Source: Ahniella affigens (GTDB taxonomy: Bacteria > Pseudomonadota > Gammaproteobacteria > Xanthomonadales > Ahniellaceae). Taken from it: a DNA stretch of 64,000 nucleotides. Positions 30,985 through 39,661 of this stretch are shown one piece after another. The position numbers and the translations under genes are program-made. Numbering within the stretch: position 1 is the first letter of the stretch; each line of letters opens with the position of its first letter. The stretch spans positions 1,674,001 to 1,738,000 of the forward strand of contig NZ_CP027860.1 in assembly GCF_003015185.1 (NCBI RefSeq), read 5' to 3'. The notes under the pieces were generated by a model. That model made no database searches, was not told where the DNA came from, and was given only the letters and a program-made list of their open reading frames with translations.

Positions 30985-34739
<3,755 letters not shown>

Positions 34740-34740
<1 letters not shown>

Positions 34741-35666
34741 CAGGACTTCCGGGCGAGCAAGGTAAGGACTTCAAAATGCGGAGGGCGGCGTTCGCGCGAA
34801 CTGATCTCGCAGTCCAGCACTTCCAATCCATGCTTGCGGCACAGACGGCGCAGCTCCTCGGGCTTGAAGCCAAGGTTCAAGTGGTCGTAGGTTTCGGCGG
34901 CCTGCTTGTGTTGATGGGCGTTCAACGTCATCGCGAGCAAGCGGCCGCCAGGGCGCAAGACGCGTGCGGCTTCGGCGATTACCTGATTCGGGTCGTCGCT
35001 GTAAGTCAGCGCGTGCATCAACAGAACCAGATCGAATCGGGCCAGTTCGAACGGCAGTGCATGCATGTCGCCAGCCTCGACCGTGACATGACGAACGCCC
35101 TTGAATCGTGCTCTGGCGACTTCGATCATGCGCTCATTGCTGTCCAGGCAGACGATGCTCCGCGCATGCGGCGCCAACAGTTCGCCGAGAACGCCATCGC
35201 CAGACGCGACGTCGAGCACATCACCGAGTTCAACCAGGTGCATGATGCCGCGGGCCAGCGCTTCCCACGTACGGCCTGGGGAATAGTGCCGCTCCATTGA
35301 GCCGGCGACGCTGTCGGCCCAGCCCTCTTCGCGGGCGCGTTTCTTGAGGACTTCCGGAAGTCGCTTCAGATCGTCGTCGAGGAGCGCGTCGTCCACAATC
35401 TGACGCGTTGTGGCCCAGAAACTAGCGCTGGCCTCATCGAGTTCGGCATTGAACCGGTAATAGGCGAGCACGCCAGCCCGTCGGTCACGAACCAGATCGA
35501 GCTCTTTCAGCTTGGCGAGGTGCGTGGAGACCCGCGGCTGAGCCAACTGGGTGATCTGCGAGAGTTCGGCAACGGTCAGTTCTTCCCGTTCCAGCAGGAC
35601 AAGAAGCCGCACCCGGGTGGCATCGGACAACGTCCGGAACAGGCTGGAGCAATAGCTGAGATCCAC
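34740..35666 (-). CDS. ArsR-type regulator fused to SAM methyltransferase
   Basis: A 308-residue two-domain protein. Residues 1-90 are an ArsR-family winged helix ([32 protein letters not shown], summarised as the recognition region at about 32-63). Residues 135-260 are a class I methyltransferase ([17 protein letters not shown], then [13 protein letters not shown] and [10 protein letters not shown]). It starts at a GTG with no visible Shine-Dalgarno. It overlaps metH by 1 bp, so it is likely a regulator of the methionine/SAM cycle. Related ArsR-type SahR regulators sense S-adenosylhomocysteine; that this protein does so by its methyltransferase domain is inference. Confidence 0.88.
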
Positions 35667-35843: not shown

Positions 35844-38657
35844 TCAGTTCACGCGTGCCAACGCCGCTTCGGCTTCATTGCGCTCGAAGGTGCTCATTTC
35901 TGCGGTCACCGCCATGAACGCGGACCGGGTTTCTGGGTCCGAGGGCATCACGGGCGCGAGTTCGGTCAGCACTTCGCGGCGCTCGAAGTCGGAGCCCATG
36001 GCTCGAACCGCATCGAGCACTGTCTTGGTGCGCAATGCATCCATGTCACCTTGGTCGATCAGGCTCAGCAGCGCTTCGCGGCGCTCGAAGTCTGAGTCGA
36101 GACGGCTGATGGCCTGACCAAAGGCTTCGGTGACCGCCGCTGAGGCGGGCAGCAGCGGGGCAACCTGTTGCAACAGCGTGCGGGCTTCGAAGTCCGATTC
36201 AATCAGTTTCGTTGCCGCCAGTACGCGCAGAATCTGGGTCCCATCCTTGGGTTGAAGCTCCAGAAGGCTTTCGAGCGCGGTGCGGCGTTCGAAGTCGGAA
36301 GTCATCGACTCGATGACTGCAAACCAGGCTTCAGAACCGATAAGTCGAGCGCCCAAGTGATCGCTCGCATTTTCGAGCAAGGTGCGCTTTTCGAAATCCG
36401 ACGTGCGCTTGGCCGTCAACTGAAAGACATGCGCCAGTTCCGAATCGCCAAACGTGCTGTGGGCAAACAGCGCTTCGATGCTGCTTCGGAACTCGTAATC
36501 CGAACTGGTATCCGCGGCGACATCAACCACTTGGTTCAATGTTGCGCCACTCAGATTCGTGTTCTTGGCCAAGGCAACCAAATGCTCGCGCCGCCCATAA
36601 TCGCTATTGATGCTCTTGATTTGCGATATGGCGTTCGCGACACCGCCTTGCGTGAGCCAGCGCTTGACGCGCGGTTCGGCGTTAAAGCCCGACTCTTTGA
36701 CGACCGTTGGCAGCGTCTGGCCGAGCCACGTCGTGGCACGCGCGTCAAATGTCTGCTCATCGCCATCGACCCAGAAGCGACGCTGGATGGTGCCGTTGTT
36801 TTCGCGGAATTCCACTTCGCGCTCAACGCCATCGTGCTCATGCGTGATCGACAGGCGTGCGCCCTTGCTCATGCGAACAACGTCGCTTTCGGCGTCATTG
36901 AACTCGTACTCGCCCCTGCCGACAAGGCTTAGCGATTCGTTGTCATTGCTGAGCTCGATCGATTGCGAGGCGCCAAACCAGAGGGCGTCTGAATCGCTGA
37001 TCCGGATTGAGCTGTACCTGCTGTCGGCCGGGGGCGCCGGCGGCGCTGGCGGTGACGGTGGTGTCGGTGGTGCTGGTGGTGCCGGTGGTGCGGGTGGTGC
37101 AAAGCCAGTTGGCGGGCTCGGCGGTGATGGCGGACTTGGTGGTGATGGCGGACGTGGTGGTGCCGGCGGGGCTGGCGGTGCTCCGAACGCCCTGGCAGAG
37201 CGGCCTGGCGTGCCGGGAGACGGTGCAGGCGGTGCGATCGCATCCGTTGCAGCCAAAGGCGCCGTTGCCGCCATTGGCGCCAAGCGCGCCCGCTCTGGCG
37301 TCGGCTTGGGAGCTGGAGACGGAGTTGGCGCGGGCGCCGTCCTTGGGGTTGCGTTCGTCGGCTTGGGGGCCGGAATTGGCGCTGGGGCGCTGATTGGCAC
37401 TGCCTCAGCAACGGGCGTTGTCGCGTCATGGCTGCGCTGCGCTTCGGAGTGGCTCAGTGTCGGCATCAAGATGGCGGCACTCAGGATGAGGCCGACCGCC
37501 GTGCCGTGTTGCCAGCGTGTGTTGGGACGTTCCTTGTTCATGATCGTGCTCCCTTGCAGTAAGGATTGAACGCGCTTCAGCAGGCTGCCTTCATCAGACA
37601 GCATGGTGAGCGCGAGGCTTTGTTGGTGCTGTTGGTCAACTTGCTCGGCACATGCCAACAGCGCATGGGCGAGGGCTTTGCCATCACCGAGGCATTGCGC
37701 CGCCATCGTGTCGGCATGACGTTCCGCAAATGCTTCCAGTTCTAGACTCGCGTGCCGACTCCAAGGCGTCCACCACACCCGTGTGACGAGCAGCGTCGCC
37801 AGACGCCACATCGGATCACGTCGCTGCAGGTGCGCCAATTCGTGTGCGAGTACGGCCTGTCGTGTTCCCGGATCGCGCAGCGAGAGCACCCACGAGGGCA
37901 GGCGCAGCAAACGGATCGGAACGAGCGCTGGGCTCAGCCAATGCGGGTCCGCACGAAGCTCCGGCTCACGAACGCGCAAGCGACGCGCCAACACGGTCAA
38001 TTCGCGCTCGAGTTCTGGATGATTCGGGTCGGGCAGGCGGCGTGTGACGTGGTTGAGATGCCAGGCTTGGCGCGCCAGCCGGATGACCTGGAGCAGTACC
38101 CACGCGAGTGACCCGGCAGCAAGCAGGCGGAGCCACATGACCGACAATTCTGTCGGTGCGGTCGAGTCGCGGCGAATCGGGGAGGCGGTGGGTCGTGTCG
38201 ATCTCGGGGCGGCGCCGGGCAGCAAAGTCACGTTTCGAGCGGCGGCTGACTGGGCGCGACGGGCATCGCGTTGTGCCGCAAGCTGGGCCTCTTCAGCTAA
38301 CCGGCGCGCTTGCCAAGCGGGCAGCATGCCGCTTTGTGCATCCGACACCGTGCGAATGGACGCAGCGTGGTTCGGTGTCGGCCAAGTCGCGCTGACCGCC
38401 GGCACGTCCGCCGCCATGTCCCGATTCGATTCAGCAACCGACAGTCCCTCGATCGCAAAAGGCCGCCACGCGTTTGGCCAAAACAAAGCCAGCGTTGCAA
38501 TCAACACGGGCGCGAACAATGCGAACCGCCAGCGCCACTCCAGCGCATGACTACCCGGTTGCCCATGGCTGCCAAACCGATGCATGACGCCTTGGCAGAG
38601 CCAGGAGAGAATCCACACCGCGGCAAACCACCACACCAGATGCTGGAGTTCAGTCAT
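35844..38657 (-). CDS. BlaR1-like M56 membrane protease with 34-residue repeats
   Basis: A 937-residue protein. Membrane segments lie at about 8-25, 45-60, 170-190 and 385-400. The M56 zinc motif AHELAHLQRRD is at residues 271-281 (HExxH 272-276), with a Glu in the LEAFAERHAD segment (about 307-316) as likely third ligand. Residues 420-545 are a proline-rich linker made of PPAPP/PPSPP. Residues 545-660 form a beta-rich part. From 680 the sequence holds eight repeats with SD-(Y/F)-ExR cores at 685, 719, 753, 787, 821, 855, 889 and 922, spaced 34 residues apart (the last 33). There is no penicillin-binding sensor domain. It overlaps the BlaI gene by 8 bp. Confidence 0.88.
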   Translation of the reverse strand: MTELQHLVWWFAAVWILSWLCQGVMHRFGSHGQPGSHALEWRWRFALFAPVLIATLALFWPNAWRPFAIEGLSVAESNRDMAADVPAVSATWPTPNHAASIRTVSDAQSGMLPAWQARRLAEEAQLAAQRDARRAQSAAARNVTLLPGAAPRSTRPTASPIRRDSTAPTELSVMWLRLLAAGSLAWVLLQVIRLARQAWHLNHVTRRLPDPNHPELERELTVLARRLRVREPELRADPHWLSPALVPIRLLRLPSWVLSLRDPGTRQAVLAHELAHLQRRDPMWRLATLLVTRVWWTPWSRHASLELEAFAERHADTMAAQCLGDGKALAHALLACAEQVDQQHQQSLALTMLSDEGSLLKRVQSLLQGSTIMNKERPNTRWQHGTAVGLILSAAILMPTLSHSEAQRSHDATTPVAEAVPISAPAPIPAPKPTNATPRTAPAPTPSPAPKPTPERARLAPMAATAPLAATDAIAPPAPSPGTPGRSARAFGAPPAPPAPPRPPSPPSPPSPPSPPTGFAPPAPPAPPAPPTPPSPPAPPAPPADSRYSSIRISDSDALWFGASQSIELSNDNESLSLVGRGEYEFNDAESDVVRMSKGARLSITHEHDGVEREVEFRENNGTIQRRFWVDGDEQTFDARATTWLGQTLPTVVKESGFNAEPRVKRWLTQGGVANAISQIKSINSDYGRREHLVALAKNTNLSGATLNQVVDVAADTSSDYEFRSSIEALFAHSTFGDSELAHVFQLTAKRTSDFEKRTLLENASDHLGARLIGSEAWFAVIESMTSDFERRTALESLLELQPKDGTQILRVLAATKLIESDFEARTLLQQVAPLLPASAAVTEAFGQAISRLDSDFERREALLSLIDQGDMDALRTKTVLDAVRAMGSDFERREVLTELAPVMPSDPETRSAFMAVTAEMSTFERNEAEAALARVN

Positions 38658-39048
38658 GGCTCTGCTCCTGATCCTGCAACAGTTTTCGCACCGCGTTCAG
38701 ATCGGCGGCCTTGACCTCCTGCTCACTAACCAAGTGTGCAACGAGTGCATTCGCATCGCCGCCAAACAGGCGGTCGAGAAACTCGGACACCATCGAACGC
38801 TTGATGTCGGACTCGGCGACGGATGCGTGATAGATCAGATGTTTGCCGTCGCGGCGTGATCGGATCAGGCCCCGCTTTTCCAGGCGGTTCAACAAGGTGC
38901 CCACGGTGGTATGCGCCAAATCACGGCTTTCGGCCAATTCGGCCGCGACGTCGCTGGTGCTGGCTTCACCGCGCTTCCAGATGGCGCGCAGGATTTCCAG
39001 TTGCAGGCCGCTCAACGGGCTCAGGTCTTCGGTTTCGGCTTGGCTCAT
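38650..39048 (-). CDS. BlaI/MecI-family repressor
   Basis: A 132-residue winged-helix repressor. LQLEILRAIWKRGEASTSDV at about 15-34 and TTVGTLLNRLEKRGLIRSRR at about 47-66 are the DNA-binding core; YHASVAESDIKRSMVSEFLDRLFGG at about 74-98 leads into the dimer domain. BlaI proteins are cut or released by a BlaR1-type protease, whose gene follows with an 8-bp overlap. Two overlapping BlaI-type operators lie just upstream, so the pair is probably autoregulated. Confidence 0.92.
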   Translation of the reverse strand: MSQAETEDLSPLSGLQLEILRAIWKRGEASTSDVAAELAESRDLAHTTVGTLLNRLEKRGLIRSRRDGKHLIYHASVAESDIKRSMVSEFLDRLFGGDANALVAHLVSEQEVKAADLNAVRKLLQDQEQSHD

Positions 39049-39073
39049 GGGGCAAAGGGCCTCGGGTCTGATC

Positions 39074-39101
39074 TACGACAGGTGTCGTACGACATTTGTA
39101 G
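39074..39101. promoter_or_regulatory. overlapping BlaI/MecI-type operators
   Basis: TACGACA-GG-TGTCGTA (39074-39089) is a perfect 16-bp palindrome of the BlaI box type. TACGACA-TT-TGTAGGA (39088-39101 and next base) is a second, imperfect copy sharing two bases with it. Both fall about 26 to 53 bp upstream of the BlaI gene. Confidence 0.75.
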
Positions 39102-39229
39102 GAGATGTCCGATCAGAACGCAAGCGGGCCGGAAGTCATGGGGGCAGCGGGTCGATCTGGTCGCCTATCGAACTTGTACCGACCAGGAATAGACTACCTG
39201 TCCCGATCTGGAATCCTGGGAGTGGGTTA

Positions 39230-39661
39230 GTGGGCAAAGTCAGTTTTGTAGCAGCCATGTGCGTCATGGCTGGCTCAAGTTTGCTGCTTGGTGGGATGGC
39301 AGCCTATGAAAACCTTGAGTTCTGGTGGGATGGCCGGGCAGCCGTCATGGTTGGCAACGACCCTGATCTCGAGCGCGCCGCGAAAGTGCAACAGTTTGAT
39401 GCCATGCGCGCTGATGTGTCGTACCAAACCGATACCGGCACCATTCAAGTGGCAGACAAGTATTTGCCGTCCGAGTTGGTGCGACGACTGAGTCAGGGTG
39501 GGTCGATCCCGATTCGCTACCTGGAAAGCGATCCCGATACGATTGAGTATGCGGGCAATCGTCTGCCGAATCCTTGGATCTGGTTGATCGTAGGAGTTGT
39601 TGCATTGGTATTCGCTGTGATCGCGTGGCGAAAATTGCGGCAAGAGTTCCGGGGCGAATGA
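39230..39661 (+). CDS. DUF3592-like membrane protein
   Basis: A 143-residue protein with a membrane helix at each end (about 4-25 and 112-133) and an extracytoplasmic beta-rich segment between them (ADVSYQTDTGTIQVADKY, then SIPIRYLESDPDTIEY). This layout and the RYLESDPDTIEY motif are those of DUF3592 proteins, of unknown function. The GTG at 39230 has GGGAG 7 bp upstream; no in-frame ATG gives a complete first helix. It is divergent from the BlaI gene and so could share its operator region. Confidence 0.7.
   Translation: MGKVSFVAAMCVMAGSSLLLGGMAAYENLEFWWDGRAAVMVGNDPDLERAAKVQQFDAMRADVSYQTDTGTIQVADKYLPSELVRRLSQGGSIPIRYLESDPDTIEYAGNRLPNPWIWLIVGVVALVFAVIAWRKLRQEFRGE

Follow-up and report, generated by a model that had tools for sequence, protein, structure and literature searches.

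The window analysed here, a stretch of 64,000 nucleotides of Ahniella affigens (contig NZ_CP027860.1, positions 1,674,001 to 1,738,000), carries a two-gene locus on its minus strand, in which a blaI-family repressor gene overlaps the start of the open reading frame (ORF) of an M56 (BlaR1-type) membrane protease by 8 bp. The two genes and the elements encoded in the protease are, in window coordinates:

38650–39048, minus strand: blaI-family repressor, 132 amino acids (aa); PF03965 (Penicillinase_R), E 4.3e-31
35844–38657, minus strand: M56 (BlaR1-type) membrane protease with a predicted beta plus alpha-solenoid C-terminus, 937 aa; ORF, Pfam, motif positions
37830–37844, minus strand: HELAH zinc motif, residues 272–276; motif search
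37710–37724, minus strand: ERHAD, residues 312–316, ExxxD gluzincin motif; compare BlaR1 H201ExxH / E242xxxD
37029–37451, minus strand: Pro-rich linker, residues 403–543; 141 aa, 38% Pro
36753–37025, minus strand: predicted beta domain, residues 545–635; AlphaFold with a 21-row alignment, mean predicted local distance difference test (pLDDT) 90.7
35847–36605, minus strand: predicted alpha-solenoid, residues 685–937, eight units with an S-D-(Y/F)-E-x-R-like motif; motif positions, AlphaFold, VIA-align, repeat-chain test

A first-pass annotation of this DNA had described a 937-residue ORF with HExxH at residues 272–276, eight motif positions from 685 to 922, an adjacent repressor gene and no penicillin-binding domain, all of which we confirm. 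The Penicillinase_R domain of the 132-aa repressor assigns it to the BlaI family, and its top NCBIfam match is CopY_TcrY (E 1.1e-22, 80.7 bits), under the cut-off of 121.95. In the protease, no penicillin-binding, transpeptidase or beta-lactamase domain was found with Pfam at E ≤ 1, and NCBIfam gave zero matches. The M56 match itself is weak at the same Pfam threshold (PF05569, E 1.7e-6, 27.9 bits versus a 31-bit cut-off) and reaches 31.1 bits, above the cut-off, when the whole genome is searched with neighbouring stretches; the only other match is a weak one to M48. M56 membership is supported by this profile match together with the gluzincin arrangement HExxH...ExxxD. In BlaR1, the corresponding residues are H201ExxH, D210 and E242xxxD (PMC9834060, in excerpt). 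HExxH, an Asp nine residues later and ExxxD are all kept in 53 of the 53 family proteases that we collected. Hydropathy of the window protein gives four hydrophobic segments (7–25, 45–63, 171–189 and 384–402), with the zinc domain between the third and fourth and the repeats C-terminal to the fourth, an arrangement that probably places the C-terminal region in the periplasm.

Downstream of these segments, the first-pass annotation rightly recognised a Pro-rich linker and repeats but overlooked the beta domain that separates them. AlphaFold predicts antiparallel strands within residues ~550–635, followed by two helices. The beta domain (545–635) is acidic, with a net charge of −10, as is the helical region (636–937), with −13. 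Foldseek returned no match to the beta domain at E ≤ 1e-3, and each of the Pfam families that match it, all nine of which were listed, does so in at most 2 of 36 members (best T2SSJ, 1.4e-4). The best VIA-align match, p32, has a Z of 5.9, which lies within the common range of the tool, so that we assign the domain to no fold family. HExxH and the beta domain are separated by a variable distance, for example ~134 residues in the relative L005 and ~273 in the window protein.

The eight repeat units read SDYGRR (residue 685), SDYEFR (719), SDFEKR (753), SDFERR (787), SDFEAR (821), SDFERR (855), SDFERR (889) and STFERN (922). The strict 34-residue period claimed earlier holds for six steps; the last step is 33, and the units at either end are degenerate. 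At a lag of 34, residues 651–937 have a self-identity of 0.224, compared with a maximum of 0.149 in 2000 shuffles over lags 10–79. When residues 545–937 were modelled by AlphaFold from the single sequence (mean pLDDT 78.7), the repeats were predicted as a regular two-helix solenoid with block means mostly >90, which supports the alpha-solenoid proposed in the first-pass annotation; the predicted helices begin at residue ~639, ahead of the first motif unit. VIA-align matches the solenoid to VPS35 (Z 14.6, root-mean-square deviation 4.4, 256 aligned) and to other HEAT-type proteins, the lowest Z of the 50 matches listed being 10.9, on a scale where helical models can reach ~13–14 through common arrangement alone. 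In its predicted two-helix repeats the region resembles HEAT-type alpha-solenoids (VPS35, PP2A scaffold, artificial alphaRep), from which it differs in lacking a consistent Pfam repeat match, in having its own SD(Y/F/H)E signature and in being bacterial and probably periplasmic. Of the 36 Pfam families that matched any of 37 members, 25 were listed; HEAT is not among these, and each of them matches at most 3 of the 37; one member weakly matches the HAT repeat model (E 9.7e-5).

Conservation outside the motif is the more telling, the 326 units having been picked by the motif, whose own letters are not evidence: Ile stands at −2 in 73%, Leu at +8 in 79%, and Arg or Ala at +5 in 51% and 23%, respectively. 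S-D-x-E may act as a helix N-cap. The third motif residue is mostly uniform within a protein (Tyr, Phe or His), with a pair identity of 0.675 versus 0.346 after shuffling and 0 of 2000 shuffles reaching the observed value; the test used 43 proteins with at least four motifs out of 49 entered (9 of 58 were left out), with relatedness uncontrolled. This uniformity could reflect either a stacked side-chain ladder or older homogenisation. His occupies the third place in most units of several Gemmatimonadota proteins, and an eleven-unit chain at L114:4945-7845 tends to alternate His with Phe or Tyr there, which suggests a 68-residue super-repeat. The window repeats contain no Cys and four His in 253 residues. 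Recent repeat duplication was considered and rejected: within the window gene, the arrays listed by Tandem Repeats Finder fall in the Pro-rich codons, apart from one at 38396–38421, and none covers the solenoid.

The C-terminal region recurs in 4 of 10 genomes of the window's family and in 23 of 200 sampled genomes of its order, the window included in both counts. Across a sample of the phylum, with scoring limited to the four best candidates of each genome, 6 of 398 genomes carry it, three of them in the window's order and the window itself among these. For the phylum of a Gemmatimonadota member, the count, which takes in that member, is 36 of 200 genomes at E ≤ 1e-6, several of them matching in the beta part alone; larger regions were examined for 12 of the 36 and for L049. 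A profile search of genome contigs returned 20 loci, including Tahibacter, Dokdonella, Rhodanobacteraceae, Lysobacteraceae, one Gemmatimonadota and one Pelomonas, some from the same genomes as the order sample, whereas a single-sequence search of the contigs found no relatives and a plasmid search no match. The 53 collected proteases represent 51 distinct ones (L014 equals L041, and L019 equals L044); G049, in fragments, was left out, as was L110, where the contig begins within the protease-side frame and M56 gave no match.

The first-pass annotation had proposed looking for further M56 proteases with such repeats beside blaI, and these do exist: blaI lies directly upstream in 49 of the 51 distinct loci, and in the remaining two, L007 and L020, the locus reaches the contig end. 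A motif chain at 33–35 spacing scores above every one of 200 shuffles in 47 of the 58 proteins (the 53 proteases, two of them duplicates, plus five standalone proteins described below), the longest chain having 11 units. Beta domain and repeats are kept together across two phyla. The 34-residue phase persists in three family relatives at 34% identity but is lost or too degenerate in some distant ones, so that the earlier expectation that close relatives would retain it stands for the former. For residues 545–937, sequence searches of Pfam, NCBIfam and PDB yielded no consistent hit, and the match to a known BlaR1 sensor class that the first-pass annotation had named as speaking against it was not obtained. 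Among the literature matches listed (titles and abstract openings, subscription papers outside the scope), no M56 protease with such repeats appears.

Upstream of blaI lie two candidate operators:

39074–39089, no strand: candidate operator 1, palindrome TACGACAGGTGTCGTA; exact TACNACANNTGTNGTA occurs nowhere else in the 6.1-Mb genome
39088–39103, no strand: candidate operator 2, a degenerate copy 14 bp from operator 1; palindrome search

These tandem BlaI-type palindromes, with an ACANNTGT core, are located ~25–55 bp upstream of blaI, where the BlaI homologue may bind them as BlaI-family repressors bind a TACANNTGTA-type operator. Operators of BlaI and MecI are palindromic with a TACA-NN-TGTA-like core, which the window operator resembles. 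A palindrome of this type precedes blaI in 18 of 20 named loci, the two without it being L036, where the contig is cut, and L049 of the Gemmatimonadota. In 9 of the 10 genomes chosen, exact TACNACANNTGTNGTA has a single copy, which in every case lies at the blaI promoter, and the reversed control has 0 matches; from the tenth genome, G207, exact TACNACANNTGTNGTA is absent. Since the exact palindrome is confined to the blaI promoter, the detectable target in the window lineage is the operon itself, and the loop looks mainly autoregulatory. The palindrome at the shared promoter had been noted in the first-pass annotation, this apparent near-exclusive autoregulation had not. The intergenic region is common to blaI and a small divergent membrane-protein ORF (39230–39661, plus strand), whose presumed start lies ~125 bp past the palindromes.

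In Gemmatimonadota, a different palindrome, TGCTA-N6-TAGCA, is found at 7 of 13 blaI promoters (L049, L107, L109, L116, L118, L119, L120). It occurs at 18 sites in eight chosen genomes, which we read by their position: 10 lie at blaI genes paired with this protease type, 3 at other blaI genes (one in L138, whose contig stops right after blaI, and two at one blaI in L139, with no such protease within 11 kb), 2 immediately before standalone beta-solenoid genes (G679, G758) and 1 where a DUF5916 gene (Pfam) starts in G679, while 2 in G597 are assigned to no gene. With L110, the palindrome stands just before the start of three of four standalone genes. These protease-free paralogues, overlooked in the first-pass annotation, are four frames of 374–444 aa placed after the protease-side gene, and five standalone relatives begin with hydrophobic leaders as judged by eye. 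In part of the Gemmatimonadota, the loop apparently also controls a second gene with an operator of its own, which encodes the sensor with a leader and without the protease. A shorter, beta-only frame occupies the standalone position in L117. Where a standalone copy is present in L107, L108 and L109, the protease repeats no longer beat shuffles and the profile still matches, as if roles were split between protease and standalone copy. Two loci of this phylum are noted individually: at L109:7819-7834, a DUF5916/CBM9-like gene probably starts within a TGCTA-N6-TAGCA site, and L111:5756-7096, in a distant genome of the phylum, encodes a standalone beta-solenoid protein that has a hydrophobic stretch at its N-terminus, with no M56 match within 13 kb.

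Other neighbours were examined as well. DUF6491 was considered as an output gene: it was found next to the protease, on its downstream side, in 8 of the 16 distinct genomes examined (18 loci with two identical pairs), namely in L032, L037, L039, L041, L043, L044, L048 and L050. The three DUF6491 copies of the window genome are far away, which puts the family outside the core system. Downstream of the protease, 30985–35666 (minus strand) holds an ArsR helix-turn-helix plus methyltransferase gene (Pfam) and a long ORF that by eye resembles metH. A 320-aa Gly-rich antisense ORF opposite the protease gene (36607–37569, plus strand) is probably a by-product of the Pro-rich codons, not a gene. The window genome has two more M56 proteases, L001 (3.11 Mb) and L002 (1.44 Mb), each with a blaI-family gene. 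The former shares the M56-blaI arrangement of our locus and ends in TonB_C; the C-terminus of the latter has no recognised domain. These two further pairs, one with TonB_C, indicate that a single relay type serves differing C-terminal modules.

On balance, we think that the locus is an envelope signalling unit that follows the logic of BlaR1 with an unclassified class of sensor. Its basis is observed motifs, conservation, gene order and palindrome placement, together with folds from structure prediction. With BlaR1/BlaI and MecR1/MecI of Staphylococcus and Bacillus licheniformis, it has in common the HExxH and ExxxD M56 gluzincin and, as predicted here, membrane segments ahead of a C-terminal extracytoplasmic region (PMC9834060, in excerpt). 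An adjacent BlaI-family repressor is likewise common to both, whereas the sensor is a penicillin-binding domain there and a predicted beta plus alpha-solenoid region here, and, unlike in BlaR1/BlaI, the exact palindrome was found only at the system's own promoter. In the proposed mechanism, the C-terminal region, in the periplasm, would engage a protein or peptide located there or in the outer membrane; this binding would activate the cytoplasmic protease, and the activated protease would cleave BlaI, derepressing blaI-M56 in a positive feedback. The induced product would in Proteobacteria be chiefly the receptor-protease plus any gene linked in cis, and in some Gemmatimonadota the loop would also drive the leader-bearing, protease-free sensor copy. 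A protein or peptide of the periplasm or outer membrane is a weak guess at the ligand, made because two-helix solenoids often bind such partners.

Several points weigh against this BlaR1-like reading. Ligand, sidedness and BlaI cleavage are presumed, and hydropathy gives the relative L005 five hydrophobic segments, not four; the extra one falls within the protease part, at the place of a re-entrant loop in BlaR1 (PMC9834060, in excerpt). The proteases of L026 and L027 lack a repeat chain although profile and blaI are present, and nine further proteins fail against shuffles (L028, L045, the proteases of L107, L108, L109, L115 and L117, and the standalone proteins of L107 and L108). No consensus sigma-70 promoter lies in 39030–39260. 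With one mismatch, TACNACANNTGTNGTA has 4 stray sites in 10 genomes (a different choice) versus 53 control matches, and weaker or half sites could broaden the regulon unseen. In Gemmatimonadota, 6 of 13 blaI promoters lack TGCTA-N6-TAGCA (L108, L114, L115, L117, L121, L122), as does the standalone gene of L108 (1 of 4), and the reversed control gives 79 matches versus the 18 sites, so that site position and not number is the evidence.

Moreover, the solenoid could be a scaffold. Solenoid and Pro-rich spacer would then form a tether that spans the peptidoglycan or serves docking, the signal being read elsewhere, for example in the 63–170 loop or the membrane part; the long spacer, its variable extent between HExxH and beta domain, the two profile-matching relatives without detectable repeats and the lack of a recognised C-terminal domain in L002 agree with this. 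We nevertheless hold it unlikely, as beta domain and repeats are kept jointly across two phyla and protease-free copies behind the same palindrome suggest a specific binding role. That BlaI sets only the level of a quality-control protease, whose main substrates are other proteins and whose solenoid is an adaptor, would fit the restriction of the exact palindrome to the blaI-M56 promoter in 9 of 10 genomes, which changes little when one mismatch is allowed; in Gemmatimonadota, however, the palindrome reaches further genes, and we regard this explanation as distinctly improbable.

The remaining alternatives concern the stimulus. PetR/PetP of Synechocystis is a copper-responsive BlaI/BlaR1 pair that controls petE/petJ (PMC7896320, a commentary, in excerpt), and our locus resembles it as a BlaI/BlaR1 pair not devoted to beta-lactams, C-terminal architecture being left aside in the comparison. 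A metal sensor of this kind, in which cations bind to the acidic beta domain and helical region and the regulon serves a response to metal, is compatible with the net negative charges, with His at the third motif place in several Gemmatimonadota and with the sub-cut-off match of BlaI to the copper repressor CopY_TcrY. It is rather improbable given that the window repeats have no Cys and few His, that SDxE can also be read as a helix N-cap, and that the sole repeated neighbour identified is DUF6491, further shared neighbours being unannotated. Adjacent blaI and M56 genes are parts of beta-lactam systems, which would allow a divergent peptidoglycan or beta-lactam sensor whose kinship to penicillin-binding proteins is past sequence detection; the predicted folds, antiparallel beta plus two-helix repeats, and the Pfam result given above make this scarcely credible.

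Within the BlaR1-like reading, a protease-free sensor copy behind the same palindrome suggests one binding module for sensor and effector. It is possible, and we put it forward tentatively, that a beta-solenoid tethered to the protease measures the ligand and that BlaI releases a secreted copy of it. The sensor of BlaR1 is a tethered relative of a beta-lactamase, and a sensor copy as output gene would resemble this relationship. If true, the secreted copy would bind the same target, to soak it up, chaperone it or remove it, and one fold would both measure and answer one ligand; in lineages like that of the window, the tethered form alone would serve as both sensor and effector.

The biology of BlaR1 has mostly been that of beta-lactam sensing. 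A non-beta-lactam stimulus for a BlaI/BlaR1 pair is already known from PetR/PetP (PMC7896320, in excerpt). The first-pass proposal of a BlaR-like system with a different stimulus is partly supported, by the missing penicillin-binding domain, the adjacent blaI, the predicted alpha-solenoid, the four hydrophobic segments and the BlaI-type palindrome; what is most likely new is the sensor class. Conserved and unnamed, this class is sharply marked by SD[YFH]E recurring at 34-residue intervals; it comes with a candidate operator and, in one of the phyla, with a gene predicted to be its output. It would thereby make the stimulus testable and define a group of envelope receptors without a name in the domain libraries searched.

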